A stretch of 64,000 nucleotides of DNA, taken from Apoderus coryli (taxonomy: Eukaryota; Arthropoda; Insecta; Coleoptera; Attelabidae). Location of the stretch: contig OU452205.1 of assembly GCA_911728435.2 (NCBI GenBank), positions 11,166,260-11,230,259 on the forward strand, written 5' to 3'. Below are positions 4,429-56,272 of this stretch, one piece after another; position 1 is the first letter of the stretch, and every line of letters starts with the position of its first letter. The notes below the pieces were generated by a model. It had not been told where the DNA came from, searched no databases, and was given only the letters and a program-made list of their open reading frames with translations. A program made the translations under genes and the position numbers.

Positions 4429-4962
4429 ATTCATATATTTTTAGCCTCCCAAATGCTACACCAATGCAAACCCAACACAGTATTAAGCAAGTCTCGAATA
4501 ATAATTAAAAGGAACACTATATCTATAGAACGACTACGGCAAGATTCCTAATTAAAACGTTATTGAATACCACTGTTCCCTCTCTATTTCTGTTAGGAAT
4601 TATTAATTAGGACTTTGGTAAATATTAAACTTCGTTAATGAATCGTAATAGTGTTTGTGCGCTTGATTAGTTTATTGATTGTGTTTTAACCAATTCTTCA
4701 TTATCATAACTTCTGTTTGTTATCTTTACGTTTACCATCTCCTTTTTTTTTTCTATTTATCAATCAAATAACTATTTGTTGGAATTTAAGGTGGCATTAT
4801 TCAAAATTGTAACTGTTTACATTCCCCATATTTTTCTCAACAAATAACATCTAAAACAACTAATTCTAAGCTAAGGATGAGGTATACTCAAATGTGAGGA
4901 GCTGTTTTCTGCGGCATGATGACGATAGAAGTTAGTGGTGGCAATCAGTGGCGGCTTGTGGC

Positions 4963-5028
4963 AGTTTAATGTGGTGAAGCATAACAAAATATATGACTTT
5001 ATTTTGTTATGCTTCACCACATTAAACT
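4963..5028. repeat. Perfect 28-bp-arm hairpin
   Basis: The left arm 4963-4990 and right arm 5001-5028 are exact reverse complements (28 of 28) around a 10-nt loop. It is preceded by 'cagtggcggcttgtgg' at about 4947, which resembles hAT-type termini, so the hairpin may be the subterminal part of a MITE; no matching right end was found. Confidence 0.85.
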
Positions 5029-7245
5029 ACGCCTAATAGGTAGCTAAAATTAATAGGGATATCCCTACTTCGTCAACTGCATAAAATATAGGTTATGTTT
5101 ATAAGTAGGTACCTCACCTAAGTATTGTTTTCTTTAAAAAGTGTAATTAGTATCTAGAATATATTTACCCACTTCATAATAATACTAAATAAAACACATT
5201 TTATGAAACTGTCAATCAAATTACTTTTATGCTACCTGTTAGCAAATCATAATACGTCTCATACCAGATATTATTAAAAGCTCTGCTTGTATGCATTTGC
5301 CTTTATTTATATTTATCAAACATTTATTTAAATCTGGAACAGGTGTGTCTGTATATTTTTAACTAGATTTTTCTGTTCTTAAAAGGAGTGTTGAATAAAA
5401 AAACTTAACTTTAGTTAAAAAAATCAAAAAATAAACATCATTTTTCATAATAACTTCGCTTACCTGATGTCAGCGTAAATATAAATTGTTGCTGAATTAT
5501 AGATGAAAATGCTTTGAGGCACGCTTCGTCTGCATAATAACGTGTATGATAAATACATTGGTGTGTCAGAGGACACAAGCACTGGCAAGGGTGTCAACTA
5601 CCGCACATAGGGACGAGAGAGACCGAAATAAATAATGTTTTACTATTATTACACGAATAAAAATAGAGAGAAATACCTATAGGTATGTAAATTAAGTATG
5701 TTAAATAGTTTTATAGGATAAAGCCTGCTTCAGATGAAGACGAAATTCAAAATTACAGTTGTATGGTAAAGCAGGTTGAAAATTAAGTATACATTAATTT
5801 ATAGATTAAATTTTATATGGAGAAAAATAATTACACAATAAAAAAAAATTAAATACTTAAATATTATTAATTTTACTGATTATTTAGGTGAATATATATT
5901 AATAAGAAGACAAAAATCAAAAGACGTCTTAAACTAAACATCCAATATAGTTTTTGAGGAATACTCCTTTAATCTGGGTAACATATTCTTTCCCATTTTA
6001 TTTCGAATTCATTTGGTCAGTTTCAGAAAAATTGTAATTATTGCGTAAGAATGTAACAAGACACACGGGCAATAGAATTTACTTTTATCCTACCGACTGG
6101 GCCAAAATTTTAGCGCAGTCTATATAGGATTAATTAGTTTTCTATGGATAGGATCAGTTTTTTATTAATTAGATTAGTTTTTTTTTTTGCACAGGATCAG
6201 TTATTTTATGGACAGAATGCATTTATTTTCGTTCAGATGCATTGTTTTTCGTATAAAATTGATTGTTTTCAGTTTTTTCTTGTTTATGATTCAGTTCATA
6301 GAGTTTTCTTTTAAATCATGTTTCTTTGTTGTTATTCATTTTCTTTATTACTTTTAATAATGAAATTAGTTGTTTTGAGCCCAAACAAAATTATGCAACA
6401 TCTAGATTAACGCTCGTTAAATATTATGTATTAAATTCGAACCTAGTGGTTAAATTAATTTTCTTATTAGGATTTAGATGGGATAATACTCTCTGCATTC
6501 ATTATCCTATCTATATATAACTCCGGTTAATTAGTTTTGCTACAAGAATAAGTTATTTGCTTCAAATTTTCGTTACAGAGGTGCGTATTCCGTATACTGC
6601 AATCGGTAGTTATTGTATAGTGCTTACATTTAAGGATATTTTCATTGCGGTGCAATTGTGAAAATAAAAGTAGAAAAAAATTCTCAATGATATACCTACC
6701 TATATTATGGTAGGTATTATATACACGCAAAATATGGATATTCGAAAGCAGCTTATATCCACCTGACGCTTTCCCGTCCGATTCCATAATATTATGATAT
6801 TTCTGCTTCTTCTTGTGAATGTATTTCATTCGAAAATAATCCCGTTTTGTGTACCTATATGTGTCTTTATATATTTCCAATTCCTTCTGTACATATACAT
6901 TTATAAATTTCCTTTTTACTGTCGTTTACAGGACACTGAATCCATCCAATAACAGTATTAAATTTGCTATTAGCTGTTATCGGTAAAACTGAATGAAATT
7001 ATATTACGTATCTTATGTTAAATAATAATAAACTTTTTCGACATCCGTACTATAATAATACACTCATATGCCAAAAATCCGTTTCATAATGAGATCCATT
7101 ATGATACAGATTTTTAACCAATAGAAACCCATAATTTTGCAATCAAGCATGCTGTGCATTTGACGTTTGTCAATACAAATATATATAAAGTTATTCATTA
7201 TTTATCGGGTGTAGAAAAAATAGCGTATGCAACTCTCATGTAATT
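5029..7245. other. AT-rich non-coding stretch
   Basis: No coding frame with family resemblance, no RNA gene and no clear transposon edge were seen. The short frames here have the composition of random AT-rich sequence. Confidence 0.4.
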
Positions 7246-18839: not shown

Positions 18840-19105
18840 TTTAAGACCAATAAAGCATCGTATCCTCTCGAAGCATCTGATGTATATAAGGTACAATGCT
18901 GATGTGGTAAAGTGTATTTTGGTGAAACAGATAGAAAAGTTTCAACCCGCTGAAATGAACATGACATATCGGTCAGACATCGGAATATAACGTCATCAGC
19001 GTTCCCCGAACATTTTGGAGAAACCGGAAACAATATTTTATTCGAAAATTCCAAGTTAAATGCTAATGACCCTTCTATTATCAGCATCAAATCAGAGAGT
19101 CACTA
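18840..19105 (+). pseudogene. GIY-YIG endonuclease fragment of a Penelope-like element
   Basis: With two in-frame stops, the frame reads ASDVYKVQC, CGKVYFGETDRKVSTR, NEHDISVRHRNITSSA and FPEHFGETGNNILFEN. The 'VY.V.C.CGKVY.GET.RK' arrangement with a following NEH is the GIY-YIG nuclease core typical of Penelope-like retroelements (also of related mobile GIY-YIG genes). The reverse transcriptase is not present. It is broken and not functional. Confidence 0.7.
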
Positions 19106-21140: not shown

Positions 21141-21153
21141 CAAAAAATTAATA
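21141..21153 (+). repeat. Left 13-bp target duplication of the hammerhead element
   Basis: caaaaaattaata at 21141-21153 recurs exactly at 21831-21843 on the other side of the hammerhead insertion. The last base could belong to either the element or the duplication. Confidence 0.8.
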
Positions 21154-21377
21154 TGTAAAAGGATGTGTTTGGCGACATCTAGTTTTATCGTTGGTAGTAC
21201 GCCGAGTGAACAACAGTTCCTATATCGGCTGCCTGGGAGGTCTCTGACCCCATAAAGCAACTACCAACACATAGACGCGCCGATACTCCCTTAAGCGGGA
21301 TCGCATATATTTGAAATGGGCTTGTTTAACAAAACAAGACTTAAAATCCGAGAGTTTGTCTGTCAACCACTATACTT

Positions 21378-21421
21378 TCACCAGACGGCCGTTTCGTCGA
21401 TCCACGACTCATCAGTGGTGA
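21378..21421 (-). ncRNA. Type I hammerhead ribozyme, intact core
   Basis: Read on the minus strand: stem I UCACCA, core CUGAUGA, stem II GUCG-UGGAU-CGAC, core GAAA, stem III from ACGG/CCGU, then UC and stem I UGGUGA. All conserved core bases are present, and stem I (6 bp) and stem II (4 bp) pair perfectly. Stem III has no loop: the octamer ACGGCCGU is self-complementary, so the ribozyme would work best as a dimer or in multimeric transcripts, as described for short-stem-III hammerheads. Predicted cleavage is after the C of GUC. Confidence 0.9.
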
Positions 21422-21722
21422 TCGGTCAGCAGTTGACAGCCAAACTCTCGTAAATAATGTGGTATATACACCACACGGTATAGAGATGTAAAAGGATGTG
21501 TTTGGCGACATTTAGTTTTATCGTTGGTAGACGCGTCTATGTGTTGGTAGTTGCTTTATGGGGTCAGAGACCTCCCAGGCAGCCGATATAGGAACTGTTG
21601 TTCACTCGGCGTACTACCAACGATAAAACTAGATGTCGCCAAACACATCCTTTTACATCTCTGTACCGTGTGGGGTATATACCACATTATTTACGAGAGT
21701 TTGGCTGTCAACTACTGACCGA

Positions 21723-21766
21723 TCACCACTGATGAGTCGTGGATCGACGAAGCGGCCGTCTGGTGA
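21723..21766 (+). ncRNA. Type I hammerhead ribozyme copy with one core change
   Basis: Same fold as the copy at 21378-21421, in opposite orientation, with identical stem I and stem II. The only visible change is GAAA to GAAG at 21749-21752, which turns the conserved A15.1-U16.1 pair into G-U. Activity is probably reduced. Confidence 0.85.
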
Positions 21767-21830
21767 AAGTATAGTGGTTGACAGACAAACTCTCGGATTT
21801 TAAGTCTTGTTTTGTTAAACAAGCCCATTT

Positions 21831-21843
21831 CAAAAAATTAATA
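21831..21843 (+). repeat. Right 13-bp target duplication of the hammerhead element
   Basis: caaaaaattaata, identical to 21141-21153. Confidence 0.8.
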
Positions 21844-28039: not shown

Positions 28040-30080
28040 TGAATATGAAGAAGCCACTGTGATGGTAAAACAATTGTTATAAATAATATTCCTCAGGAAT
28101 TGAATCATCCCCAAAATATCAACAATTACTTTTTACAACATTTAAATTATACACTCCCAGATATTGAACTGGTAAATTATTATAATAACAACAAAAAGTG
28201 CAATTTTGAGCAGTTGTTTGAGTTTTCATTAGTTGATGAGTAGGCAGTTAAGGATTTTCTTTTGCAGATTAAAACAAATGCAATTGGTCCTGATCGGATA
28301 AATGTTGACATGCTGTTGTTCTGTTGTCCTCGTATACTTCCTTTTATCACACATATAGTTAATTCTTGTTTATTGTCTGGTGTCTTCCCCGATCTCTGGA
28401 AAATCAGTAAAGTTATTCCGCTGGCCAAGATTAAGGATGCCATTGATTTTGGTAACCTTCGCCCAATATCTATAATGTCACCTCTTTCGAAAATTTTGGA
28501 AAAGGTCATGGCCACACAAATTAAATTTCATTTAACAAAACATAATATACTACCGTCAACACAGTCCGGGTTTCGTAAGGGCTTTAGTTGTACGACTGCA
28601 CTTCTTGATATTGTAGACGACATTATGCGTGACCTGGATGGTGGTAAATCTTATACTCTACTTCTAATTGATTACTCTAAAGCATTTGATACTATCAGTC
28701 ACGATATTCTATTAGCGATCCTCAATTTCTCAGATTTCTCTTCAGGTGCTATAGATTTTCTCTACAGTTATCTACATGGTCGTAGTCAGTTCGTGGAAAC
28801 TCAAAATGGTTGTTCTGACGTAGGAGGCATATATTGCGGTGTTCCACAAGGATCGATTCTGGGTCCCTTACTTTTTTGCTTATATACGTCAAATCTTCCA
28901 TCTTGTCTAAATTTTTGTAGCCCCTATATGTACGCGGACGATAGTCAACTTAGATTTTCATTTTATATAGAGGATATCGTCAACGCATGTAAACAAATAC
29001 AACGAGATTTGACGTCACTTTTGTCTTGGTCAGATAGACATAATTTAAAAATAAATCCATCCAAGACAAAGATGTTGGCGTTTGGTAGGAACAAGACGTT
29101 GGTTAATCAGGGTCTTATAGTTAGCATTGGCGACACACCTATAACCTATTTTAATTCAGCTAGGAATTTGGGAGTTGAGATGGATTCGGATCTCCGTTTT
29201 ACAGGCCTATTCTGCTTTGAAAATGCTGTACCCACACAGACATAGTCTCACTAAGCATTTGAAAATCAAACTCACAGATGCACTTGTTTTAAGTAGCTTT
29301 AATTACTGTGATATTGTCTACGGCCCTTGTTTACTTCAGTCTGATAAGGATCGTATTCAAAGGGTGCAAAAGTCTTGCTTGAGATACATATACGGTATTA
29401 GGAAATATGATCCAATAAGTCACAAATTGATCTGCGCAAAATGGCTGTCAATGAAAGATAGAAGATTTCATCATGCTGCCTGTTTTTATCATTCATTGAT
29501 ACTTCACGAACATCCTCCATATTTATATCGGAAAATTGGCTTTAGATCTGACGTGCATAACCTCAACCTCAGGTTTAGAGGACTTTTATCGCCACCTCCT
29601 CACCGTACATTGTTGTTCGAGCGCTCATTTACTTATAACATTTATTGCACGTATAACGGAGTTCCGCATAATTATAAGACTTATAAGCCTTCGACGTTTC
29701 GATTAGTACTACGAAAAAGTCTATTGAATTTGGTATAGATATTGTTTGATACTTTTGTTTTTGGTGTTATTATCTATTTTATAATTGTGTTGTCCAGATG
29801 GTATTTATATATATATATATATGTATAATCTCTCTTTTTGGGTCATAAATAATTATATTTCATTTTCTGGGTTAGGATACACATATCAGTTTTACTGCCT
29901 TCTAACCCTTTTTGCAGATATTTTTTTTTTCTTGTGTATGTTGTAATTTTTTGTATATTATGTTGTATATTATGTTTATTATTGTTATTATTATTATATG
30001 TGTGTTATAAATTTTGTGAAAATTATTTAATACATTTGTTGTTACATATGATATGGAGAGCTATAAATAATAATAATTAT
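28040..30080 (+). pseudogene. 5'-truncated jockey/CR1-type LINE with reverse transcriptase
   Basis: Coding resemblance starts near 28085 (IPQELNHPQNINNYFLQHL), passes one in-frame TAG at about 28240, and continues as the reverse transcriptase frame 28262-29245: NAIGPDRINVDML, SGFRKGFSCTTALLDIV, LLLIDYSKAFDTISHDIL, GVPQGSILGPLLF and the catalytic YADD at about 28930. After DLRF (about 29203) the frame breaks, with about 10 codons missing relative to the sister copy at 34395, and resumes at about 29210 as AYSALKMLYPHRHSL through YNYCDIVYGP-like sequence (NYCDIVYGPCL) to 29738. The endonuclease is absent. The 3' end is AT-rich, with ataataataat near 30075. This makes cDNA at a nicked target in intact relatives; this copy cannot. 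Confidence 0.85.
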
Positions 30081-35333: not shown

Positions 35334-36581
35334 TCGGGTCCGCCATCTAACGTTTTTTTTTCTGATTTGACAGATAATTAGTTTTATCCTTCCGCTGAAC
35401 GAATATGGTTGTGTATACGCTTGAACAACGCTGGGAAATATTGCGACATTACTTTGAAAATCATGGTAATGTTGCAGAATGTGTGCGAAAATTGCGTACG
35501 GATTTTGGAAGAAGAGAAGCACCGTCAGCTCCGTATGTTCGTTATCTCTTGAAAAAAGTGAAAGAAACTGGCATCCTCATCGATAAACCAAAGCGTGAAA
35601 AGCCAAAAACAGTGCGTACACCCGAGAATATTGCTGCTGTGGCAGAAAGTGTGCGTGAAGCGCCATCAACATCAATTCACCGACGGTCTCAACAATTGAA
35701 CATTTCGGAGACATCATTGAGACGAATTTTGCATAAAGACCTTGGTATGACGCTATACAAAGTCCAATTGGTTCAGGAGTTGAAGCCAACTGACCATCCA
35801 ATGCGTTTTCGCTTCGCTCAGTGGGCCTGCGATCGACATACAGAAGATGCCGATTTTGCCAAAAAAATCATCTTTTCAGATGAAGCTCATTTTGATCTTG
35901 GCGGGTATGTAAACAAGCAAAATTGTCGCATTTGGGGCACAGAAAACCCGCACGCATACATTCAAAAGCCGATGCACCCAAAACGAGTCACTGTTTGGTG
36001 CGGATTTTGGTCCGGCGGCATAATTGGGCCATTTTTCTTCGAAAATGAGCAAGGAGTGGCCGTTACAGTCAATGGCGATCGTTATCGGGCCATGTTGAAC
36101 GAATTTTTGTTCACAAAAATTGAAGAGGAGGATATTGGCAACATTTGGTTTCAAAAGGACGGCGCTACGTGCCACACAGCCGAAGCTACACTCGATGTTT
36201 TGCGCCCTGTTTTTGAAGATCGCATTATCAGCCGCAGAGCTGATGTCATTTGGCCACCTCGGAGCTGCGATTTGACACCGTTGGACCATTATTTGTGGGG
36301 TGCCGTCAAAGATAAGTGTTACGCCGACAAGCCAGAGACAATTGACGCTTTAAAGGACAATATTCGTGAAGCCATTGGTGGAATACAGATGCACACATAA
36401 TGTGCTTAAAAATTGGACCTAGGCTACTGCATGGCCAGCCGAGGCAGCCATTTGAATGAAATTATTTGTCATTATTAACCGGAAGTATTGTACTTTCAAA
36501 TAAAAAAAGAAATTTGAGAAAATATTCAGCAGTTTTTCTTTTATAGCATTTAAAAAAAAAAAAGTTATCTGGCAGACCCAA
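35334..36581 (+). mobile_element. Rosa-type (DD41D) mariner element, nearly complete
   Basis: Imperfect TIRs: the left end tcgggtccgccatctaac (from 35334) faces the right end gttatctggcagacccaa (to 36581). TA dinucleotides at 35332-35333 and 36582-36583 are the expected mariner target duplication. Length is 1248 bp, usual for mariners. It contains one long transposase frame. Confidence 0.85.
35405..36400 (+). CDS. Mariner transposase, DD41D rosa subfamily, C-terminus altered
   Basis: The 331-codon frame starts at an ATG 71 bp inside the left TIR end. Residues about 1-115 form the paired-like HTH DNA-binding part (YTLEQRWEILRHYFENHGNV, SETSLRRILHKDLG). The catalytic triad is D159 (IIFSDEAHF), D252 (FQKDGATCHT) and D294 (DLTPLDHYLWG); D252 to D294 are separated by 41 residues, the DD41D signature of rosa-type mariners. 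The frame stops after QMHT, yet the same reading frame 18-60 nt downstream resumes family-like sequence (GYCMASRGSHLNEIICHY) at about 36422-36475. Two small compensating indels therefore appear to have cut off a conserved tail of about 30 residues. All catalytic residues are intact; activity is uncertain. Confidence 0.9.
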   Translation: MVVYTLEQRWEILRHYFENHGNVAECVRKLRTDFGRREAPSAPYVRYLLKKVKETGILIDKPKREKPKTVRTPENIAAVAESVREAPSTSIHRRSQQLNISETSLRRILHKDLGMTLYKVQLVQELKPTDHPMRFRFAQWACDRHTEDADFAKKIIFSDEAHFDLGGYVNKQNCRIWGTENPHAYIQKPMHPKRVTVWCGFWSGGIIGPFFFENEQGVAVTVNGDRYRAMLNEFLFTKIEEEDIGNIWFQKDGATCHTAEATLDVLRPVFEDRIISRRADVIWPPRSCDLTPLDHYLWGAVKDKCYADKPETIDALKDNIREAIGGIQMHT

Positions 36582-37483: not shown

Positions 37484-38538
37484 CGAGGGTTGCTTTTGCC
37501 ACTCTGATTGAGGTATCTTGAAAACATGCATTCAGAATGCAGCAACCGCTTCTTCAGGTGTCGAAAAACGTGGACCTCTCAGTTTGTTTTTTACGTACGG
37601 GAATAAAAAGAAGTCATTCGGTGCCAAGTCAGCACTATACGGCGGATGACTGATGAAATCGATGTTTTGGGTGCTCAAAAATGCAGTTGTTTGAGCCGAT
37701 GTGTGAGAGCTCGCATTGTCGTGGTGAAGAGTGATCCGTCTTCGGCGGTTGGTTTTCCTGATTTCTTGGAAGACAACTGGCAAACAAATGGTTGTGTACC
37801 ACTCAGAATTGACTGTTCTGCGTTGTTCTAGTGGTACGGTTGCGACATGTCCAGTTTTTCCGAAAAAACAGGCGACCATTTGCTTGGAAGTGCTTCGTGC
37901 GCGAACTACTTTTGTTGGATTTGGCTCATATTGAAACATCACTACAGTCGACTGCTGTTTACTTTCGGGCTCATACGCGTAAATCCATTCATCACCTGTC
38001 ACGATGTCATAGACGTGTTTCGAAGCACCACGATCGTATTTTTTGAGCATTTCTTTCGACCAATCGACACGAGCCTTTTTTTGAGCGATTGAAAAATTGT
38101 GTGGGATCCAACGCGAAAAAATTTTTTTGACAGTCAAATGTTTATGCAATATTGAATGTTTGCTGCTGCACTAATGCCCAAAGTTGTCTCAATCTCTTGA
38201 TAGGTCACATGACGATCTTGCAATATCAGTTCGCACACAGCATCAATGGTTTTCGGAACAACAACTGATTTTGGACGACCTTCACGAAATGCGTCTTGGA
38301 GTGAACTACGACCACGATTGAATTCACCATACCATCGATAAACACTGGTCCTTGATGGAACTTCATCGCCAAAAATTGAATTAAGTTCATCCATCTGTTG
38401 CTGAGTTAATCCACGTCGAAATTTGTAAAAAATAATCGCACGAAAATGTTCACGATTTAATTCCATTTTTCGGCCGAGATGAATCTTTTAAGTTACTGTA
38501 AACAACACAAATAGCGCTCGTATGTCAAAATATTCTAA
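37484..38538 (-). pseudogene. Vertumnana-like mariner transposase (DD34D), frameshifted and 3'-truncated
   Basis: Minus-strand reading starts at ATG 38464-38466 with MELNREHFRAIIFYKFRRGL and an HTH region, goes off frame near 38150, and resumes (38149-37532) with WIPHNFSIAQKKARVDWSKE. Catalytic Asps lie in VTGDEWIYAYEPE (one residue shorter than the usual GDESWIY), LHHDNASSHT and SADLAPNDFFLF; the last two are 34 residues apart (DD34D). The expected SPD is SAD here. After a TGA the same frame continues MHVFKIPQSEWQK and then breaks into caaccctcgta, the probable terminus, so the C-terminal tail is deleted. The leader is interrupted at 38539 by the Ty3/gypsy insertion and resumes at 43744. Dead copy. 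Confidence 0.85.
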
Positions 38539-39110: not shown

Positions 39111-39283
39111 GAAAGGGCTGGGACCCATAACAAGGGCTGGGACCCATAACAAGGGCTGGGACCCATAACAAGGGCTGAGACCCACAACAAGGGCTGAGAC
39201 CCACAACAAGGGCTGAGACCCACAACAAGGGCTGAGACCCACAACAAAAGCTGAGACCCACAACAAGGGCTGAGTCCAACTTT
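39111..39283 (+). repeat. 19-bp minisatellite in the retrotransposon leader
   Basis: About nine head-to-tail copies of aagggctgrgacccayaac. The first three carry 'gggacccat', the later ones 'gagaccca(c)'. As 19 is not a multiple of 3, all three frames of the minus strand stay open and repetitive, which explains the overlapping false frames there. Confidence 0.95.
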
Positions 39284-39775: not shown

Positions 39776-39784
39776 ATCGTGAAT

Positions 39785-42700
39785 TCGACATCAGGCTAAT
39801 AAATGCACGTTTGGTAATTCGTATGTGGAATCCAAAGACATTAGCTTAAAGGATAAACTCATAGATAATTGGGCACCCCTTGAACTCAAGAGAAAGTTAT
39901 TAGAAAAAGAAAGATCACTTAGTGAAGTTATCGAGCTCTGTTTGGTGCATGAACAAATTTGTACTCAGTCCAAGGTAATGGATATGTCAGCTGTACCAAG
40001 CACGAGCGCGTTAACGAACGTGAATAAAATTACTTTACGGCCGAATACCAAGCTCAACAATAATATATGCTCTCGGTGCGGTAAAACCGGACATTTTCAA
40101 TTTTCTAAAGATTGTCCGGCTAAACAAGTCAAATGTCACAAATGCGACTTACAAGGACATTTCGCTTCAATGTGTAGAACTATACGAAAGAAACGTGCTG
40201 CTGGCAATGATCCTAGGAATAATTCATACAAACGGAAAAAGTCAACCCATCAAAGAGTTAACTTTGTTGATAATTCCGACTATGAAAATCGAACCGACAC
40301 AATTACAGATTTCGAATGTTTTAAAATTATATCAAGTCCATCAAACGATGTTAATGATGATATGATTCAATGCGAAGTAGGAGGAGTCTTAATAAATTTA
40401 TTGATAGACTCCGGTTCGAAAGTTAATATTGTTAATGCCGAATCCTGGGATTTTCTAAACTCACATAAAGCCATTGTTTGGGATGTTAATACATGCCCAG
40501 AGCATACTCTGAAGGGTTACGCTTCCACAAGTTCTTTACAAGTTACGCGCCAGTTTCATACAACAATTAGCATCCCCAATCGCGAAGAGATTATTACAAC
40601 TTTCTATGTGGTCGATCAGGGTGAAATTTCTATTCTAGGTAAAGATACTTCCATGCGGTTAGGTCTTTTAAAAATAGGATTAAATGTGAATAAAATTGAT
40701 AATGATAGTTGTTTTCCAAAAATTAAAAACATAAAAATTAAACTGACTATTGATCCTTCAGTGAAACCGGTTAGACAGCCCGTTCGCCGAATACCAATTT
40801 CACTAGAGGCTCAAGTGGAGAAAAAGTTACAAGAAGCGTTAGATGCTGATATTATCGAAAAAGTAATAGAACCTAGTTCTTGGATATCTCCAATTGTTAT
40901 AGTATTTAAACCTAACAACGACATTCGAATTTGCGTAGATATGCGCCGGGCGAATCAAGCTATACTACGGGAAAATTATCCACTTCCAACTTTTGAATCA
41001 TTTATGACAAAATTGCGGGGAGCCAATTACTTCTCTAGATTGGACCTATCTAATGCTTATCACCAATTAGAACTCGATGAAGACAGCCGATACATAACAA
41101 CATTCATTACCCACAAAGGTATGTTTAGATATAAACGTTTAATGTTCGGCGTGAACTCCGCGCCCGAAATTTTCCAGAGAGTTTTTGAAGAGTTACTTGC
41201 GTCTTGTAAAAATTGTTTAAATTACCTTGATGACATAATTGTTTTCGGTAACACAGAAGAAGAACATAATCACTATTTACAACAAATTCTAATAACCTTT
41301 AAGAATAATATTGTTCTCTTAAATGATACAAAATGTGTCATGAAGGTACGCGAATTACATTTCTTGGGACATAAATTATCAAATCACGGTATTGATGCGG
41401 ATGAAAAGAAAATAAGAACTGTTTTAGAATTTCGACCACCTAAAACTAAAGAAGAATTAAGAAGTTTTTTGGGTTTAGTAACTTACCTTGGAAAATTTAT
41501 CCCTGACTTAGGAACGTTAACTGAACCATTACGTCTCTTAATTAAACAAGATCAAACATTTACTTGGACTAATATTCACCAAGAGAATTTTGACAGATTA
41601 AAACGGTGTCTCGCAAAGCTTCCCACTTTGGCTTATTTTGACCCAACCAGACGAACTCGTTTAATTGCTGACGCGAGCCCAGTAGCATTAGGTGCTGTTC
41701 TTCTACAATTTAACGAATCTAATATACCACAGGTTATATCTTATGCAAGCAAATCTTTAAGTGATGTTGATGTTGAGAGTTTATCGTTAGTTTGGGCAGT
41801 AGAAAGATTTTACTATTATCTTTCTGGATTGGAATTTGAGCTTGTGACCGATCATAAGCCTTTAGAAGCGATTTTTAAGCCAAGTTCAAAACCTCCTGCT
41901 AGAATTGAACGTTGGATATTAAGATTACAAGCTTTTAAATTTAAAATTATCTACAAACCAGGAAAACAAAACATTGCAGATTCAGTCTCACGCCTCTGTT
42001 CAATTACTCAGGAACCTTCATTTGACGGGGAAGAGGAAAATCACATTTTTACTATTCTTGAACGTCACACGCCTAAAAGTATAAAAGTTTCAGCTGTAAT
42101 AACGGAGAGCGAAAAAGATAAAGTTATTTGTGACGCAGTAGAGAAGGTAAATAATAATAACTGGAATATTTCAGACAAAAATCCATATTTTCCATTTCGT
42201 ATAGAACTCGCTACCATGGGCCCAATTTTATTAAGAGGAACACGTATTGTTATTCCGGAAACCCTACGTGAACCAACATTAAAACTGGCGCACGAAGGTC
42301 ATCCGGGTGGAACCGTTATGAAGCGTCGGTTACGTGCTAAAGTGTGGTGGCCACTAATCGATAAACAAGTAGAGAAATTTGTAAAAATGTGCCGTGATTG
42401 TCTGCTAGTTACTTTACCTGATAAACCACCCCCAATGACCCGTCATCGGTTTCCTGATAAGCCGTGGGAATGTATTGCGATTGACCTAATGGGTCCACTG
42501 CCAAATCAAGAACAATTACTTGTAATAATTGACTATTTTTCAAGATATCAGGAAATAAAATTTTTAAAGTCTACGACATCTACAATAATTATTCAGCAAT
42601 TGTTAGAGGTGTTTTCGCGATTGGGTTTCCCGAAATCTATTCGTTCCGATAATGGGCGACAATTCGTAAGTATCGAATTCCGCACGTTTTGTGAACATCA

Positions 42701-43406
42701 TGATATAGAACTAATACATACACCACCCTATTGGCCCCAAGCAAACGGCGAAGTAGAGAATATGAACCGGTCCATTCTTAAACGACTCCAGATTTGCGAT
42801 GCCAATAAATTAAATTATCAAACTGAATTACAAAAATTTACACTAATGTACAATACTACCCCGCATGGAACTACAGGTAAATCTCCAACAGAACTGCTTA
42901 TGAACCGTAATATTCGCGACAAAATTCCTTCAATTAATGATCTTGTGAGCACACCAGTTAATGAAGAAGTGCGGGACACAGATTTAATTAATAAACATAA
43001 AGGAAAGGAAAGAGAAGATGGTACGCGACATGCTCAGGAAAGTGGAATTAAACCAGGGGATAAAGTATTATTACAAAATCAAATTTTCCCAAACAAATTG
43101 ACCACCCGTTATAATAACACAAACTATACAGTTCAGTCGCGCACCGGAAATGAAGTCGTCGTACAAGGTGACAATGGTCAAATATTTAAGCGTCATGTGA
43201 CTCATGTCAAAAAAATACCAGGCGAGGAGAAAAGTCCAGAAATGTCGCCTTCTCCAGAATATGCCTCTTTAGAAGTTGAAAATAATCCTGATTCTCAAAC
43301 ACCTCAAAAATTGGATTTACCACACACTTCCTGTCCCAAACCCAGTTCTATGCTTCCTCCTCTAAAACTGAAAAAAGTTGAGGGAATGTGGCAACATTCC
43401 AATTAA
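39785..43406 (+). CDS. Pol polyprotein with C-terminal gag (nucleocapsid)
   Basis: The open frame in +1 relative to gag; it has no ATG at its beginning, so translation must reach it from gag. Numbered from 39825: two CCHC-type zinc knuckles at about 84-125 (CSRCGKTGHF..C, CHKCDLQGHFASMC); aspartic protease LLIDSGSKVNIV at about 195; reverse transcriptase with SRLDLSNAYHQLELD and YLDD at about 467; RNase H with IADAS (about 614) and TDHKPLEAIF (about 675); integrase with HHCC finger (HEGHPGG..CRDC, about 820-855) and catalytic D-D-35-E (AIDLMGP, RSDNGRQFVS, NGEVEN). A GPY/F-like tail follows. The last codons run 20 nt into the 3' LTR before TAA. No internal stop. Confidence 0.95.
43371..43386 (+). 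promoter_or_regulatory. Polypurine tract
   Basis: aaaaaagttgagggaa directly before the 3' LTR start TG, in the expected position for plus-strand priming. It lies inside the pol coding frame. Confidence 0.8.
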
Positions 43407-47317: not shown

Positions 47318-47458
47318 AAACATTTTTTTTGATAGTATTTTCTTGATTTTAGGTCAATTTGCAAATAATACTGCGGTTTTATGAAAGGCACATTGTATTT
47401 TATAAGAAATGTCGAATAAATTTTGACGTTTCGATCATTTTTTTGATCTTTCTCAAAA
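47318..47458 (-). repeat. Penelope terminal-repeat fragment with hammerhead-like motif
   Basis: Minus-strand 47458-47425 reads TTGAGAAAGATC, then aaaaaaat, then GATCGAAACGTC: a 4-bp stem II with GAAAC-GTC but a deviant first core. The adjoining aaatttattcgacatttctt and aatactgcggttttatg blocks recur inverted at 52538-52645. Confidence 0.55.
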
Positions 47459-47609
47459 TAGTCTGTATGGCATGAATATTGCTTAAGCACAAATCAACAA
47501 ACACATTATTACACAAAAACATATATTTCCAAATATTATAATGATATTCGGTTGTCGTTATACTTAGTTACCTATATATTTTTTTTATTTTAAGAGGGGC
47601 GTTTGAATA

Positions 47610-48120
47610 AAATCGTTTGCAGACCTATTTTTGCGCATGGTAGACTCCACTAATACGTATCTGATAGCAAAAATTTTGATAGGGAGTTAAAGAGTAAAGA
47701 TGGGATTAGGTATTGAAGTATTTTGAAGTTGAAATATTGGATAGTTAGTTCAAAAACAGAGTTAGAAAATCATCATATTTCGCTTTGCAGGCATAATTTT
47801 GCGCATGGTAGACGCCACTAAGACGTATCTGCTAGCAAAAATTTTCATAGGGTTTTAAAGACCAAAGATGGGATTAGGTAATGAAGTATTTTCAAGCGGA
47901 AAGATTAAATAGTTAACTCATAAATTGAGTTCAAACATGGGTAATTTTTTCAAATTTACAGATATATTTTTGTGGATGGAAATCTCCACTAATACGTATC
48001 TGGTAGCAAAAATTTTAATAGGGTCTTAAAGATTAAGGTTTGGATTAGGTAATAAGGTATTTTGAGGCTACAACAATAAATAATTACTTAATAAATTGAG
48101 TTCAAAGTCAGCAACTTTTT
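47610..48120 (+). repeat. Three diverged tandem repeats of about 170 bp
   Basis: Units begin near 47627, 47795 and 47966, each with 'tttttgcgcatggtagac'-like text, ccactaa(t/g)acgtatctg, tagcaaaaatttt and gggattaggta. Period is about 168-171 bp. No coding. Confidence 0.75.
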
Positions 48121-48616
48121 CCTCATTTTGTGCTATGATTCTAATATTTAATAATGATAATATTACTTTATTACCTAATTTATATATTTAACAATCACTT
48201 GTAATTAAAATTGTTCGTGAAAACTTTCTGTATTAGACAATATCCATATATAAAAAAAACCCTCATATTTCTCTTCAAATATCCGCCATTTTCTTATATT
48301 TTTTTTATAACTGTAGCCAACAAACAAGTAATTAGTAGTTGGGACAGCATTGAAGAGATGGCGCTGTTTATACACAGTGACACAAAAATCTAATGGTTTT
48401 GTCGTACTTATATTTATTAATATTTAGTTGTATGTGGTATAGTATATTATGTATATGCGTATGTACTAGGAGTAGGGATTATTAACGTTAGCCAGGTACA
48501 GTAATATCAGAGAATACATAAACATCTATGGTAATATTATGTAGGTATACCTACTGTTAGAGGATAAATACAAGAAGGGATAAAGTAGTAGTAGTTTGTT
48601 ACGTTAGTTTATTGGA

Positions 48617-48716
48617 AATAATACAATTATAATAATTATTAAAATTCTGTTTCGTTACGCAGGTCATATATTTTTGATTATATTATAACTAGTCGGGAAA
48701 GTTTTAGGGTGACACA
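48617..48716 (+). repeat. LTR-end-like dispersed repeat, copy 1
   Basis: ttctgtttcgttacgcaggt, a catatatttt block, gtcgggaaagtttt and ggtgacaca recur at 59301-59406. The upstream 48380-48616 stretch may belong to the same LTR. No coding is attached at either copy. Confidence 0.55.
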
Positions 48717-48956
48717 ACCGATTTTTTATGATCTATAGAGAGAATACAAGAACTCCCGACTGGTAGTTATTATAAAATTATAAGATACCCTTGGTAGGGG
48801 TTTAAATAGTGTTTAAAATTTCACCAGTTAGGTAGTTGGAACGTATATACAGGGTTATTCACGCCATACGACACGGAATACTGTGGTTAAACTATTTAAT
48901 TTCCTTGAAGTTTTATTCATGGGTTCGATAAAAATGATTTATGGCTACATTTTAAA

Positions 48957-50948
48957 AATATTGTGAGTCTATACAGGGTGTCCCAAATATGAGAAATTAA
49001 CCATAGTTGTGTTTTTTTAAATGGAATGCCCTGTATATGAATCAATTTCCCGTTCAAAATAAACCTAAATTTCATTAAAGCCCATCTCACCTAAACCTGA
49101 CAGTTTTTTAAATATTTATGTTTTAATAAAAATATAGACATAATTTGAATGAAAAAATTCACACCTATTTGTTTGTTCTTTTTAAGCCAGTCTAGGCTGA
49201 TGAATATCTCATCACTTGTTACGCCAAATATAAAAAATCCCCAATACTAAATACAGGGTGTCCAATAATATAACTTATATGAACGTAAAGTTTAATTCTA
49301 AATAACTTGTTTATTTCAAATGGAACACCCTGTATATGAGGTAAAAATTAGATGCACAAAGTAATTCTCTGTCAAATATTATAATACTTTCCTATGGATA
49401 ACTCTTGACGTTTTCGTGGAAAATGCACATATTCATAATATTATGCGAATTTTTAATTGAACCTGTTAATTTCATGTAGACCACCCTGTATTTGATGGTG
49501 ATGAAATTAATTATCTATTAATCACTATGAGGTTTTCTTATAGATATGTATATTTTTTTAATGTATGGAAAAAGCACATATTGGTATAGGAAGACTTTTT
49601 CAAAATTATATTCGTCAAGTCAGCCATGAGAATTTGACAAACCATAATTTAAACAATAACATAATAAATAAATACATTTTTAACTTAAATTAAATAACAA
49701 GATATACCTACATAAAAACTGATAAATTTTATAATAAATGTTCAAAATGATTGGACTCTAGGCACATTTCAATCCTTTTCTTAATCCTTCAACAACTTTA
49801 ATCTGGTGTAACGCTTCTAAACGCTTCATTTATTTGCTCCTTCAAAATTAAAAAAGTTTTCATTTGCGATGATTTGGTTCCTGGCCCATTTACAAAATTC
49901 AACACGATTTAAAATCAATATTGAAAAGTTCTTGATGCAGTTGCACTGTATTTGGGTGGTATCTTTCGTTAAACTGCCTTAACAGCCTCTCGAAGACCGC
50001 TTTTTTGGGGTGATTTTGCGCCAGGAACCTTTGAGCGTAAACTCGCGATTCCAGTAAAGCGTTTTTGGACCATTCTCCCAGAATAAAAATCATGTGTATG
50101 CTCTCTCCTTTGGAATAGGTTCGCATTTTTGAATTGAAGTGAATTAAATCAAATGTCACAGATAAAAAACTGTTTTATGAAAAATTCTCAACTCTTAGGT
50201 AAGAATTTTCAACCGACTATTTGACAGTAAATATTAAATTACAAAAATGTATTCTCTTCTTCTCAAATTCTCATGGCTGACTTGATAAATATTATAATTT
50301 TGAAAATTCTTCCTCTTATTGCCAATATGTGTGCCTCTTCCATGCAAAATTAAAGATAAGTATACATATCTATAAGAAAACTTTAATTTTTGCATCATTA
50401 AATACAGGGTGGTCTACATGAAACTAAGAGATTCAATTTCAAAATCGCCTAATATCATGAATATGTGCATTTTCCACAAAAACGTCAAAAGTTATTCATA
50501 GGAAAGTATTATAATATTTGACAGATAATTACTTTATGCATCTAATTTTGACCTCTTATACTGGGTGTTCCATTTGAAATAAACAAGTTATTTAGAATTT
50601 AACTTTACGTTCATATAAGTTATATTATTGGACACCCTGTATTTAGTATTGGGGGCTTTTTATATTTAGCGTAACAAGTGATGAGTGGGTATATTTATCA
50701 GCCCAGACTGGCTTAAAAAGAACAAACAATTAGGTGTGAATTTTTTCATTCATATTATGTCTATATTTTTATAAAAATTTAAATATTTAAAAAACTGTCA
50801 GGTTTAGGTGAGATGTACTTTAATGAAAGTTAGGTTTATTTTGAACGGGGAATCTAAAAATATATTCATATACAGGGCATTACATTTAAAAAAACACAAC
50901 TATGATTCATTTCTTATATTTGTGACACCCTGTAAATACTCACAATAC
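48957..50948. mobile_element. DNA element with inverted arms of nearly 700 bp and a deleted DUF4817 transposase
   Basis: The left arm 48957-49639 and right arm 50263-50948 are inverted copies along their whole length (starting tattgtgagt, acagggtgtc, and ending inside at 'gtcagccatgagaatttgac'). The 620-bp centre carries the remains of one transposase on the minus strand. Long internal 'ggacaccctgta' and 'gggtgttccattt' motifs recur in each arm. A solo arm of the same family is at 24010-24420. Long-inverted-arm structure is seen directly; assigning the arms to the transposase in the centre is inference supported by its position. Confidence 0.8.
49735..50159 (-). pseudogene. Internally deleted DUF4817-type transposase
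   Basis: Minus-strand 50159-49899 gives HMIFILGEWSKNALLESRVY, AQRFLAQNHPKKAVFERLLR and QFNERYHP, the DUF4817-like N-terminal helix-turn-helix. The first ATG in this frame is at about 50126. After a stop the next segment (49898-49735) holds FCKWARNQIIANENFF, then EAFRSVTP and CLESNHFEHLL, the family's C-terminal end. The catalytic core is lost. This ties the flanking long arms to this transposase family. Confidence 0.65.
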
Positions 50949-51420
50949 CTAATACCCTACTTAATTTTTTAAATTTTTACTGTTAAAATAAGTAATGTAC
51001 CAATCGTAAATCATATAGATAGGTACTATGTTAAACCGCATATTAAACTAAAACTTAATTTTTCTCGAAAATGCAGCATTCTATCATCTTGAGATAAGAA
51101 TACCTCATATTTCCTAAGAATGATCTCAGAATTCTCGAAAAGTTAGTGACAAAGAAGTTTTTATTAGAAATGTCCGTTGATACCCGTTTGGACGCCTATG
51201 TTCGCATATTTAATTCAGCAGTGTATGGCTAAAGAATGCTTCTATTTAGGGAAATATCTTTGTCACCTTTCACTCCAATGGCTAAAGGCGCTTTCGCTTT
51301 CTTTTAAAAACTATAACTGCTTTCGGAAGCAATTTCGCATTAGAAGTTTGCCATGAAATCTGCTCTACAATTTGTGGCTTTCGCTTGGTCCATTAGTTTC
51401 TGGACACATTGTATACTATT
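50949..51420. other. Non-coding stretch
   Basis: AT-rich, with no recognisable gene, repeat edge or RNA. Confidence 0.35.
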
Positions 51421-51718
51421 AGGAAAGACACTCTTTGATGCATGAAATAAACGCCTCATGGTTTTGAAACTGACAAACTAAAACAACAGGGCTAACCTAA
51501 TACATTTTGAAAAACACTGCAAGCATACAGGGCGGTCCAAAGAATAGATAAGTATGTATTATCATAGTTAGGAAAGACACTCTTTGATGCATGAAAAAAA
51601 CATCTCATGGTTTTGAAACTGACAAACTAAAACAACAGGGCTAACCTAATACATTTTGAAAAACACTGCAAGCATACAGGTCGGTCCAAAGAAGAGATAA
51701 GCATGTATTATCATAGTT
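51421..51718 (+). repeat. 149-bp perfect-register tandem duplication
   Basis: Units 51421-51569 and 51570-51718, differing at only a few positions (for example gggcggtcc against ggtcggtcc). Each unit contains 'gcatacaggkcggtccaaag'. Confidence 0.9.
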
Positions 51719-52370
51719 CTGGTTTTTTAAATAGAACACCCTGTATTGGAGTATTTAATAGTCCCTCAAAAATAACTGGGATTCAGTTTAAGGTGTCATA
51801 TACCTATGTTTTACGGTTTTCACACAAATCATCAATTTGTGAAAATTTAGAGGCTTGGCAAAAAAATAATATGTTGAAAATATTTAAAAATCTTGACTAT
51901 TTATCGTAAATAAAACCAGTTTTTTTACATTCATCCTTTTTATGTATAATAGTATGTAACTATAACTGGTCTAAGCGAAGATAAGCATCGAACGTATAAG
52001 AATGCTAGCACAAAAAAGAATGTGAAAATAATTTACGCAAAATAGAAATATGATATTTTGTGCCACTATGTATTAATTTTTGGCGACACCTATTGAGGAG
52101 AAGAATGTATTAAAATATTCTAGAAAATTACTCTAAGTTAAGAAATGAATAATTTGATATTCAATGAGATTCACTAGCGCCACCATCGGACATTTTTGTA
52201 AGTAACCATTTCAGATTCCCCTCTTAAGTTAAATATTGTTTTTTTTTTCGAAAAATAATCCATTATGACGAGGAGTGTTAATGTTACAAAACAAAATAAA
52301 AGTCGTCTACTCCACAATACAACTCTGTATAATTACACTAGATCATCATTGGTACAACCAAACCAAAAAT

Positions 52371-52399
52371 GTTTCGAAAGTTCAAACTTTCATCATCAG
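52371..52399 (-). ncRNA. Hammerhead-like motif with perfect stem II
   Basis: The minus strand reads CTGATGA, one T, GAAAG-tttgaa-CTTTC, GAAAC. Both core segments are intact and stem II is 5 bp, but one unpaired base precedes stem II, and the bases after GAAAC (atttttggt) give no GUC. Confidence 0.5.
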
Positions 52400-52515
52400 T
52401 GGTAAAATAACATAGTGTCAGGAAGCGAAAATTGGATATTAGTTCTACATAATTATAAGAATCTAAAAGTAATAGAATACAATAGAGAACTAGATTGTTT
52501 TGTTTAGGTGTATAG

Positions 52516-52645
52516 CAGGAGATGCACTCGAAACGTCAAGATTTATTCGACATTTCTTATAAAATACAATGTGCCTTTCATAAAACCGCAGTATTATTTG
52601 CAAATTGACCTAAAATCAAGAAAATACTATCAAAAAAAAAATTAC
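52516..52645 (+). repeat. Inverted partner of 47318-47458
   Basis: tcgaaacgtcaagatttatt, cgacatttcttataaaata and aataccgc-type blocks (aaaccgcagtattatttgc) are the reverse complement of 47318-47440. The hammerhead-like core here is decayed (caggaga for ctganga). Confidence 0.65.
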
Positions 52646-52659
52646 AATTCTTTTTATTA

Positions 52660-52990
52660 TGATGAACTCAAAAAGTGAAATATGCCAGTGACAAAAAAGT
52701 TGGGGCGTTATTTCCTCCACCCCCTCTAGTTTGATGACTATAATTTTGGAAATCCTTTTGGTATGACTTGTTAAGAATTAAAGATAAAATCCATGTGTAA
52801 AATTTCATTGATGTATCTAAAAACGTTTCGTTAATATTCACGAAAAACCATTATCAGGGTCTAATTTTAAACGCCCTGTATCTCGGGTACAATGAATCTG
52901 CAGACCTATGTTTATTCGAACTTTTTTCTCAAAATTCATTGTTCTATCACCTGTATTAATTTGTAATAATACATAGGGAACACCCTGTAT
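52660..52990 (-). repeat. Right arm of a long inverted repeat (partner 45055-45380)
   Basis: It ends ggaacaccctgtata, facing the tacagggtgttcc start of the left arm. Together with 52516-52645 it preserves the order of the left side (45055-45380 then 47318-47458) in inverted form. Confidence 0.7.
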
Positions 52991-53059
52991 AATGAATAGT
53001 GGTGGATTCTTAGGGCATAAGGACTTTGAAAAATGCTAAAAGCTTTTATTCATTTAAGC

Positions 53060-53092
53060 GACGTTTCGCCATATATTTACGGGCTTCTTCAG
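53060..53092 (-). ncRNA. Minimal hammerhead-like motif in a Penelope terminal repeat
   Basis: The minus strand reads stem I ...agc, CTGAAGA, one A, GCC-cgtaaatatat-GGC, GAAAC-GTC, gctt. CUGANGA, GAAA and the GUC cleavage triplet are present, and stem III is only the self-complementary ACGU, so it could act only as a dimer. One extra A separates the core from stem II. Confidence 0.6.
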
Positions 53093-53352
53093 GCTAAAAA
53101 TATATAAAAATTCATCACCTTTACTAACAAGTAGTACAACAAAAAACGAGCACACATGCAATCACATCAATAACACCACGACTTAGCATGTAATAATACA
53201 TATTTATCAATAACATACCTCTCTGAATACTCACTTAGAAATATACCTAATCAGATTAACGTATATTAAACTTAAATTATCCGTATCTCTTTGGAAATTA
53301 ATACTGTCAGGAGTAGAGTTAATATAGACCATTTCACAAGCGTTTCCCGTAA

Positions 53353-53897
53353 TTAAATTCTTGTGAGTATTTCTGGGTTTTCGAAATCAAAATTATGTCC
53401 CGTTGCAGAATGGTGATCGCTGAGAGCTGTATTGTCTTTTTTATAACGGCAGGCATTTTTGATCCTATTCTTTAAATAATTCTTGGTTTGTCCAACATAC
53501 TTGGCAGGGCAATCTTGTATAGTATCCTTGAGACTTGTAAATAACGATGAGATATTATTTTGATTGTAAGGGACAATCGAAATATCTTGGGATTGGAAAA
53601 GTGTTTTGAGACGATGGAAAACACCCGGTATATACAAAAGCTTCTTCATGTTGATAGTGTTCGATATATTGGTTACGACATCGTGTTCGCTGAGCCTGCG
53701 TGAGTATGAATAACATGGTTAGGGTATGAATTATCTTTCAAACTATTTTTGATAATATTGGTATTGTCATCCCAAAAACTCTCATGGGATATCGTGTACA
53801 TTCTCTTGACAAGGCCTTTGACCACACTTATTTTATGCGTCACACAGTGATTGGAATGGTAATTAACGTCGCTTAAATGAATAAAAGCTATTAGCAT
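53353..53897 (-). pseudogene. Penelope-like polyprotein remnant (thumb plus GIY-YIG)
   Basis: The minus-strand frame 53897-53673 gives VNYHSNHCVTHKISVVKGLV then KRMYTISHESFWDDN, the post-reverse-transcriptase thumb. After a frame change, 53649-53353 gives LLYIPGVFHRLKTLF, then DCPAKYVGQTKNYLKNRIKN, YKKDNTALSDHHSATGHNFD, a GIY-YIG nuclease in which the first GIY half is replaced by TIQDCPAKYVGQT-like text. The reverse transcriptase core is absent. Dead copy. Confidence 0.75.
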
Positions 53898-53936
53898 TTT
53901 TCAAAGTCCTTATACCCTAAGAATCCACCACTATTC

Positions 53937-56228
53937 AATATTGTTTGGACGAGAACTTATACAATTAACCCTGTATATCCGTCTTAAACTCAATTTTTTT
54001 TGTAGCGCGTTAACAATACTTTTCGTATGGGTCGGGAAAGTAAAAAAAACACATTTATTGCAATTTAAAATAGCGTAAAGTAATGTTTGCTGAATATGTT
54101 AAAAAAAAGTTATTTCTACATGCTGAAAACGAAATACCAAATAAATTATACACGCGCATTGGTATTAAATTAATGTCTTTGCGGTAACTTTCCCATAATA
54201 TACTTACTCAACCTCACAAAGCTACATAGGTACCTACTCATTTACATTGAAAACACAGGGAAGTTAAAATAAAATTAAAAAAACATAATTTAGAACTCTA
54301 AATGTGAAATATATGAATGCCACTGACTGTGGTGCGAACCTAAATAATAAATTTAAATATGTGTATGTATGGTATAAAATATTACTCCACTACCTACATA
54401 GCATGTAAAAAAACCATTGTGTGATTTGTTGTACAACGGAAAAACGACGTCCAGGGAGCCACCGTGAAGACGTATGAGGTATGCAAATTGCCTAGTTAAG
54501 TACCATATGAAACACGAACTACTAAAAATGAATGTTTTCTGCACAAGCTATATGCTCTATGTAGAATTGAACTACCAGGGTGTCCGTAAAGTCACGGAAC
54601 GGGTGATTATATTCAAAATGGTACATTTATAAAAGAAAAGCCGAGGTATGTCAGTTTTGATTTATGTTTAGCAACTTTGTAGCCCGTATTTGATCCGAAA
54701 TCTGCCGGCTCCACCATTTAAGTCATGTTTGTTTCAAATTGCAACTCCTATTTTCTGAATACAATGATGTGCCACATCTGGGGGGACCATAATAAAAATT
54801 TTGAGAAAATGCAGTTGCCTTCTTATCCACTTTTGGATGTGTCGCTTTGCCATTACGCTGCTCTAGAGTTACATATTCTTATGTTACAATTATACTGTTT
54901 TAAGAAAATTGAGGTTTAAAAATGGACTTTTATATTTAGATACTAAAATTTGCACGTGTGCTTTAATTCCCCTTGTAAATTTACCTTTTTATGGGAAAAA
55001 GGGCACAGTGTGGGTGGGCAAATTTCGATGTTTTTATACGGTACAGCCTAAACCCCAATAGATAGAGCGAAACTAAGTGACATGTCACGTTCGATTTTTT
55101 TGAGCTTAGTTTAATGCCGTAATCGGAGCGCGGCGAACTTGATTAGTTTTCTTTAGACAGGGCGATTTTCATTTTTTGTCATTTTCTTTTTTCCTTTATA
55201 TTTCGGTTGTCATTAGAGTTACGGGAAAAGTGTTTTTATAAAAGTTAGATATAATTTGATGCTTATTGCAGCGGCGTATCAACAATTTTTTTCAAAGTCC
55301 AATTGATCAAGATATCGCTATCAACTTTGTTTTCTTAAATGGGACACCCTATATATTACAGCGTCAATAGATTCCAAATTTCATTCCCTTTACAACCATG
55401 TATTATAACTAAGTAGCTACATATTTAGTAAAACTTAATAAAAAATAAAAACCAAGATGCTGTTATTAGTAACAAACAATTATTGTAGTTTGAGAAAAAT
55501 TTGTACTTTACGAGGAAGCAAGAATATCGCGACTAGGGACCATGTTATGAGCATCATATCAGTGGTATACTCCATGAATTTATGAAGCCAAAATCATGTA
55601 GAGCTTCCCTGTATAAGGAAGTACAAACATCTATAACAGGTCCAAATGCATACACAAAGCATTAATAATGATAAAATACATATAGAGGACCGACGACGAC
55701 GACAACGGGCGCATAATGGTTTCGGGGCCATCAGTAGTGTCTTAATTAAAAACAAACTCAGATCTCTGTTTGAACTTTGCCGACGACATGTTGTTATTGG
55801 TTCTTTTAATTATTACATCGTTTTGTCTTCTTCAACAAGATTTATTTGCATTATGGTTGTTTGTTTAGTATTTTAGCAATCATGTGCTAAGTATTATGAA
55901 AAGTGCATAATGGTTGATTTCAACTTAAACAGGAAAAATAGGTACATCAATTTAGGTAAACTAAATATTAGATATTTAAATACATGTATTCTACGACTAA
56001 TAATAAATATAATAATAAAAATAATTCATAGATTGTATACAATTCTTGTTATTATTATTATTCTGGTTGTATATATGCAAGCAATTCACAAAATTCGGAT
56101 CTGAGTGTAGTCTTTACGAGGTGTGGATATAAAACGAGACTATCATTGGATAACATTTTACTTTGAATTAATATTAATTAAACAAAACTTGAAGTCTTGT
56201 TACATTATGTATCGTTTCTGAACTCTAT
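53937..56228. other. Non-coding stretch
   Basis: I see no gene. It includes repeat-edge fragments such as ccagggtgtccgtaaagtca (54577) and gggacaccctatata (55340). Short frames here are not supported by composition. Confidence 0.35.
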
Positions 56229-56272
56229 ACATCCTTCCAAATAGAACAAATAGATGTCTAAACTTCCTTGAC

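Follow-up and report, generated by a model that had tools for sequence, protein, structure and literature searches.

The window, the whole 64,000-nucleotide stretch of DNA analysed, contains a 677-bp insertion at 21154-21830 which, as the preliminary description had indicated, lies between two 13-bp direct repeats, CAAAAAATTAATA (21141-21153 and 21831-21843). The insertion is made up of two oppositely oriented copies of one 333-nt unit, a tandem extent of 1.13 units being followed by an inverted 0.91 unit (Table 1). A 45-bp end repeat, previously noted to recur head to tail at exactly 333 bp, was confirmed at that spacing with 44 of 45 positions identical, and the opposite orientation ascribed to the second unit is evident from two pairs of inverted arms, one of 221 nt (98%) and one of 127 nt (100%). 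Both copies were aligned to a head-to-tail trimer of the 333-nt unit, which served as the reference for permutation. Unit 1 aligned over 377 nt free of gaps, while unit 2 comprised sense positions 208-333 followed by 1-177, also ungapped and with mismatches at 4 of 303 positions; positions 178-207 are absent from it. The circular permutation of unit 2 is directly observed and is an addition to the preliminary description. The unit has a GC content of 45.3% and is non-coding, its circular form having 4-7 stops per turn in all six frames and a longest open stretch of 56 aa; in the insertion plus its flanks no frame was open beyond about 70 aa. Simple patterns for the Pol III A and B boxes had no match in the unit, and comparison of the unit with the rest of the 64-kb window gave a best match of E 0.66, that is, no second locus.

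Table 1. Coordinates of the insertion, its parts and related hammerhead motifs in the window
Feature	Position	Strand	Remarks
Left target-site duplication, CAAAAAATTAATA	21141..21153		contains AATTAAT and ATT; A at 21153 assignable to the unit too
Unit 1, 377 nt, 1.13 turns of the 333-nt unit	21154..21530	sense -	RNA 3' side (presumed RT start) at left duplication
45-bp repeat, outer copy	21153..21197	-	spacing 333
45-bp repeat, inner copy	21486..21530	-	44/45 identical to outer copy
Long outer stem I hairpin, 35-nt arms, round unit 1 hammerhead	21349..21450	-	inverted repeat and fold
Type I hammerhead, unit 1	21378..21421	-	RF00163, 33.8 bits; descriptor; predicted cleavage after C17 at 21384
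Perfect palindrome, 12 bp, TAGACGCGTCTA	21528..21539		at head-to-head joint
Unit 2, 303 nt, 4 mismatches	21532..21834	sense +	circularly permuted; presumed RT start at right duplication
Long outer stem I hairpin round unit 2 hammerhead	21694..21795	+	inverted repeat; fold of 21670-21800, z -8.5
Type I hammerhead, unit 2	21723..21766	+	RF00163, 29.8 bits (1.2-kb scan); descriptor; C17 at 21760
Right target-site duplication, CAAAAAATTAATA	21831..21843		first 4 nt assignable to unit 2 too
Inverted arms, pair A	21310-21530 vs 21614-21834		221 nt, 98%
Inverted arms, pair B	21153-21279 vs 21532-21658		127 nt, 100%
Minimal PLE-type hammerheads	15044, 33510, 52399, 53092	-	a single unpaired A or T separates CUGANGA from stem II in each
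Minimal PLE-type hammerhead	57365	+	one unpaired A or T between CUGANGA and stem II

The target duplication had been given as 13 bp. A 13-bp match is indeed present, but the true length lies between 9 and 13 bp, as the 4 nt CAAA at the right edge and a single A at the left edge fit unit or target alike, leaving microhomologies of 4 and 1 nt at the insertion edges. Random flank pairs allowed the same slack matched over at least 9 bases in 534 of 2,000,000 cases (2.7e-4) and over at least 10 in 264, match lengths being tabulated up to 10. The 5' ends of the two copies meet at 21530/21532 within a perfect 12-bp palindrome, the A at 21531 being an extra base that fits neither unit; palindromes of at least 12 bp occur at 62 of the 63,980 centres in the window. 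Within the joint palindrome, the central CGCG alone pre-exists in the intact unit, the four outer matches having been created by the join. The palindrome fits joining via self-complementary cDNA ends, as judged post hoc.

Each unit carries a type I hammerhead motif. The preliminary description of a hammerhead-bearing unit stands insofar as both the Rfam model and a structural descriptor match, although both scores fall below the gathering score of 34 for RF00163, and a whole-window Rfam scan at the gathering score listed no hammerhead. The unit 1 motif was detected with E 2.3e-6 in a 1.2-kb scan and 1.2e-4 in the whole window; at E up to 5, the whole-window scan listed unit 1 and not unit 2. 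The strict descriptor, which required three stems (I-III), a core of CUGANGA and GAA, and U-H where cleavage occurs, found two sites in 64 kb, one per unit, each with full core and helices I-III. The two-polarity arrangement known from some viroids was ruled out, since the descriptor placed one hammerhead in each unit, on the sense strand only. In unit 2 the core GAAA is changed to GAAG (A15.1 to G), which probably weakens its predicted ribozyme. Helix III has 2 possible bp closed by a GGCC loop, and its letters, ACGGCCGU, are self-complementary; stem III could possibly be shared between two molecules in a dimeric form, and amphibian hammerheads are reported to act as dimers (PMC7229834). In the predicted fold, stem I consists of six pairs, an internal loop and the long outer stem. 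The hammerhead fold is dearer than the minimum free energy (MFE) fold of the same stretch by 8.7 kcal/mol in unit 1 and 8.1 kcal/mol in unit 2, energies which omit tertiary contacts. As a circle, the 333-nt RNA has a predicted energy of -117.8 kcal/mol versus -83.3 +/- 5.6 in 100 dinucleotide shuffles (z -6.2). Scans of two contig collections, viral_contigs (two scans) and genome_contigs, with hammerhead patterns found 0 matches; as the collections are viral and prokaryotic, this result has little weight, and the window's own genome is perhaps absent from them.

Both copies cross the predicted cleavage site (21384 on the minus strand, 21760 on the plus strand). Furthermore, unit 2 traverses the unit origin gap-free and unit 1 extends for more than one turn. 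Read-through of the cleavage site together with the extra turn implies that the template was a closed circle or an uncut multimer, an argument made stronger by the permutation of unit 2. A hammerhead-cut linear monomer was considered and rejected as template, as it would start and end at the cleavage site, yet both copies cross there. The earlier proposal of reverse transcription of circular or multimeric RNA fits the sequence. The presumed reverse transcription starts, which are the sense 3' ends of the copies, adjoin the duplications, and correspond on the unit to sense position 333 (left) and about 173-177 (right), 156-160 nt apart. No poly(A), simple or microsatellite tail was seen at either insertion end. 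AC-richness before the two starts is ordinary, 18% and 7% of the 333 unit positions being equally rich or richer; an AC-rich start motif of the kind found in Poseidon was thus dismissed as not distinctive at either start. As a side observation, on the sense strand the two retrozyme copies and a Penelope-like element (PLE) copy described below can each be read as terminating in TT, 0-1 nt, CA at their outer ends (21834, 21154 and 52993/53937; TTTCA, TTACA, TTCA); a shared start signal is possible, post hoc.

The copies are not identical. Mismatches between the two units fall at sense positions 6, 17, 57 and 95, and a further one, at position 308, separates the two 45-bp copies. On the sense strand, four of the five differences are A/G and the fifth is T/G (21153-21834). 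RNA editing of paired RNA, chance, later mutation or the use of two templates could all possibly explain the A/G excess, five being too small a number. Had a single circle been read twice, the 45-bp copies would be identical; the difference between them would thus require a reverse transcription error, later mutation or a multimer of unlike units.

PLE sequences occur in the same window. The frame at 56222-57334 had a single match among 1051 candidates, P0001 (E 4.5e-52). In a tblastn search, P0001 matched 56249-57061 (+, E 1e-59), 18867-19028 (+, 1e-4) and 26285-26133 (-, 0.002), with no match within the insertion at E up to 10, and the frame 53718-53356 (-) is a weak relative (blastp E 0.002-0.006). 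The first part of P0001 scores 25.6 bits against RVT_1, short of the 29.6 cut-off, and P0001 is also annotated with PF00078 and PF26215; GIY-YIG-like residues were recognised by eye in its later part. On the basis of this homology and these residues, the window frames are identified as PLE endonuclease remnants, the one at 18867-19028 lying about 2 kb from the insertion. Pfam identified no family in two of the endonuclease frames at E 0.001, the sole match at E up to 10 being an ABC-transporter model in one frame (E 0.077), and a search of solved structures with these frames gave nothing below E 0.6. A descriptor for PLE-type minimal hammerheads found seven sites in the window, whereas 60 shuffles gave 0.13 on average and never more than 1. 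These are unit 1 and six others, of which the site at 3268 is doubtful; those at 53092 (-) and 57365 (+) lie downstream of PLE endonuclease frames. Two PLE-like copies have head-to-head inverted arms, namely 52989-53941 (52989-53065 vs 53865-53941, 77 nt, 96%) and 47323-52639 (47323-47434 vs 52528-52639, 1 mismatch in 112), the latter being assigned solely by its hammerhead-like 3' core, with no PLE frame found between its arms. In both, the shorter arm starts inside the 3' core of a hammerhead-like motif, the shared letters starting at AACGTC (6 nt) in 52989-53941 and at TCGAAACGTC (10 nt) in 47323-52639, with lengths counted through the predicted cleavage-site C.

The window also contains other repeats. 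A reverse transcriptase frame at 28244-29242 (RVT_1, E 7.7e-29; 28244-29738 in a side listing) is read as LINE-type, and a PLE would thus not be the sole candidate enzyme. A Gypsy-type polyprotein frame with RVT_1, RNase H and integrase occupies 39783-43406, and transposase frames read as mariner-like lie at 35399-36400 and 37532-38487 (DUF4817 helix-turn-helix; DDE_3 just under cut-off). Tandem repeats are present at 51419-51718 (149 bp x 2, 96%), 47616-48106 (168 bp x 2.9) and 39113-39274 (19 bp x 8.5), none of which drew a match when the whole window was scanned with Rfam up to E 5. At 4951-5035 several microRNA models match both strands below their cut-offs, probably marking a short inverted repeat.

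Combined, these observations lead us to favour, with modest confidence and from one locus, insertion of an animal non-LTR retrozyme by two-sided priming at a staggered cut on circular or multimeric RNA, the enzyme probably being that of a PLE. An animal genome is judged probable from the set of transposons in the window. The 333-nt non-coding unit would be transcribed, self-cut by its type I hammerhead and maintained as a circle or multimer. A staggered cut made in AT-rich DNA by an endonuclease would free two 3' ends, both of which would prime reverse transcription on the retrozyme RNA, the left one at position 333 and the right one at about 173-177. One cDNA would extend for 377 nt and the other for 303 nt, their 5' ends being joined head to head near the CGCG self-complement, and fill-in of the stagger would generate the 9-13-bp duplication. 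The enzyme most likely would come from a Penelope-like element. Of this account, the unit, its ribozyme motif, the permutation, the crossing of the cleavage site, the duplication and the joint are seen directly in the sequence, while the RNA intermediate, priming from two sides and the PLE as enzyme are inferences. As the insertion has one hammerhead per orientation, no unit-length circle should be releasable from it, suggesting that it is probably a sterile offspring. Several points count against this reading: the hammerhead-active fold lies 8.7 kcal/mol over the MFE, the 45-bp copies differ by one base, and insertion by Poseidon in vitro proceeds without hammerhead cleavage (PMC11167929). 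Further, the starts are 156-160 nt apart where those of Poseidon are adjacent, and the AC-richness before them is ordinary; given helix III in its hammerhead, the unit is more than just the end of a PLE; the window also contains a LINE-type reverse transcriptase (28244-29242); and, in the ends searched, the PLE copy at 52989-53941 lacks any duplication of at least 6 bp. The more specific claim, in which retrozyme circles are mobilised in trans by the protein of a PLE that uses both strands of one staggered cut as primers for reverse transcription, is advanced only tentatively, as a proposal that could well prove wrong.

Twin priming, with which the preliminary description had compared the head-to-head arrangement, holds in that priming from both target sides fits the insertion. 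In its L1 style, twin priming yields inverted 5' parts, and a LINE-type RVT_1 frame at 28244-29242 could represent a source of enzyme for the same retrozyme RNA. This is nevertheless rather unlikely and L1 is not the best analogue, as there is no poly(A) or microsatellite tail at the ends and reverse transcription presumably began at two different points inside a circular unit. A PLE enzyme which cuts and extends both strands provides a better match (PMC11167929), PLEs with such a head-to-head layout have been published (PMC3846280), and the palindromic joint and AATTAAT target are better matched by published PLE insertions (PMC3846280). Self-priming, in which the 3' end of an antisense multimer would fold back and serve as primer for copying the same molecule before the hairpin is integrated, has been used to explain just such a head-to-head layout with a palindromic joint in A. 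vaga Penelopes (PMC3846280). However, unit 2 runs 177 nt beyond the point at which unit 1 meets the target and is thus not a copy of unit 1 alone, such that an extra truncation is needed, whereas two-sided priming accounts for the insertion without an extra step; the arms also differ at 4 of 303 sites, and we consider self-priming unlikely.

Capture of two unrelated retrozyme cDNA fragments, end-joined at a staggered double-strand break, would be compatible with ends that are arbitrary relative to the unit, with edge microhomology of 1 and 4 nt and with the extra base at the joint. It is improbable given that both presumed start sides face outward, which is one of four layouts, and given the 9-13 bp duplication and the palindromic joint. 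That the unit is the pseudo-LTR of an autonomous PLE rather than a separate retrozyme is suggested by the hammerheads that PLE pseudo-LTRs bear and their occurrence in inverted form (PMC11167929, PMC3846280), and by the PLEs in the window. Conversely, the unit hammerhead is canonical with helix III while the PLE-type motifs of the window are minimal, the unit closes on itself at 333 nt with circle frames open for at most 56 aa, and no other match to the unit occurs in the window below E 0.6, making this interpretation very unlikely. Long inverted arms are also a property of foldback DNA transposons, and a satellite fragment or assembly artefact might be envisaged; we give these explanations almost no credence. 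A terminal inverted repeat or foldback DNA element was rejected because the outer ends are not complementary, the left end pairing instead with the middle. A mirror-read assembly artefact was likewise rejected: the sequences on either side of the insertion show no mirror symmetry, the arms are permuted relative to each other, with differences at 4 of 303 sites, and there is a target duplication.

PLEs have been proposed as the source of the enzyme that inserts animal retrozymes (PMC7229834). Where both cDNA starts can be mapped, as in this inverted dimer, the insertion step has left a physical trace; this locus argues for a circular or uncut multimeric template and for machinery able to extend the two target strands, and its head-to-head layout is a signature which can be counted across genomes. 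If a PLE does act in trans, head-to-head retrozyme dimers with permuted units would be a fingerprint of PLE action. Since a circular unit reveals each cDNA start, such dimers could then decide between two-sided priming and antisense self-priming for PLEs.

Animal retrozymes are known, as the preliminary description had stated. Metazoan non-LTR retrozymes have type I hammerheads, RNAs of 170-400 nt that include circles, tandem repeats and, when present, target duplications of more than 4 bp (PMC7229834). They are further marked by many genomic copies, by expression as linear and circular RNA and by the lack of a PBS or PPT. The unit described here resembles them in its type I hammerhead, its length of 333 nt, inside the range of about 150-450 bp for such units, its GC content under 50%, its non-coding nature, its strongly self-paired RNA, its duplication of more than 4 bp and the co-occurrence of PLEs. 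Shared hammerheads, tandem layout and co-existence are the grounds on which a PLE was put forward as a strong candidate for mobilisation of animal retrozymes (PMC7229834). Metazoan retrozymes are arranged as head-to-tail dimers to multimers (PMC7229834), whereas the insertion here is inverted; the terms inverted, head-to-head and opposite orientation are all absent from the main text of that paper, and in the portions available of PMC11722881 and PMC7761336 "inverted" is not applied to retrozymes. An inverted retrozyme dimer was likewise not found in the literature as represented by titles and abstract starts, subscription papers and supplements lying outside that search. Plant LTR retrozymes similarly use a hammerhead-processed circular RNA template (PMC4918200) but have type III hammerheads, LTRs with PBS and PPT, a length of about 700 bp and 4-bp duplications (PMC7229834).

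The resemblance to PLE insertions concerns layout, joint and target. The purified protein of Poseidon, a PLE of Anolis, cleaves both target strands and extends each of them, favours an ATT motif and initiates reverse transcription at two adjacent sites within the RNA, hammerhead cleavage being dispensable for insertion in vitro (PMC11167929). In A. vaga Penelopes, pLTRs are inverted, the head-to-head form being the commonest, with palindromes at the inverted joint, a layout ascribed to self-priming on an antisense template; duplications of 8-10 bp, one of them GAATTAAT, occur in some copies and none in others (PMC3846280). Head-to-head copies, a palindromic joint and an AT-rich target with ATT or AATTAAT are found here also, and the duplication of 9-13 bp compares with the 8-10 bp of those A. 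vaga copies, whereas the starts are 156-160 nt apart and not adjacent as in Poseidon. PLEs carry a reverse transcriptase plus GIY-YIG frame and minimal hammerheads, in contrast to the non-coding unit with helix III described here. Thus, although layout, joint and target are PLE-like, the unit has helix III and is without a reverse transcriptase or endonuclease frame, and it is therefore filed as a retrozyme.
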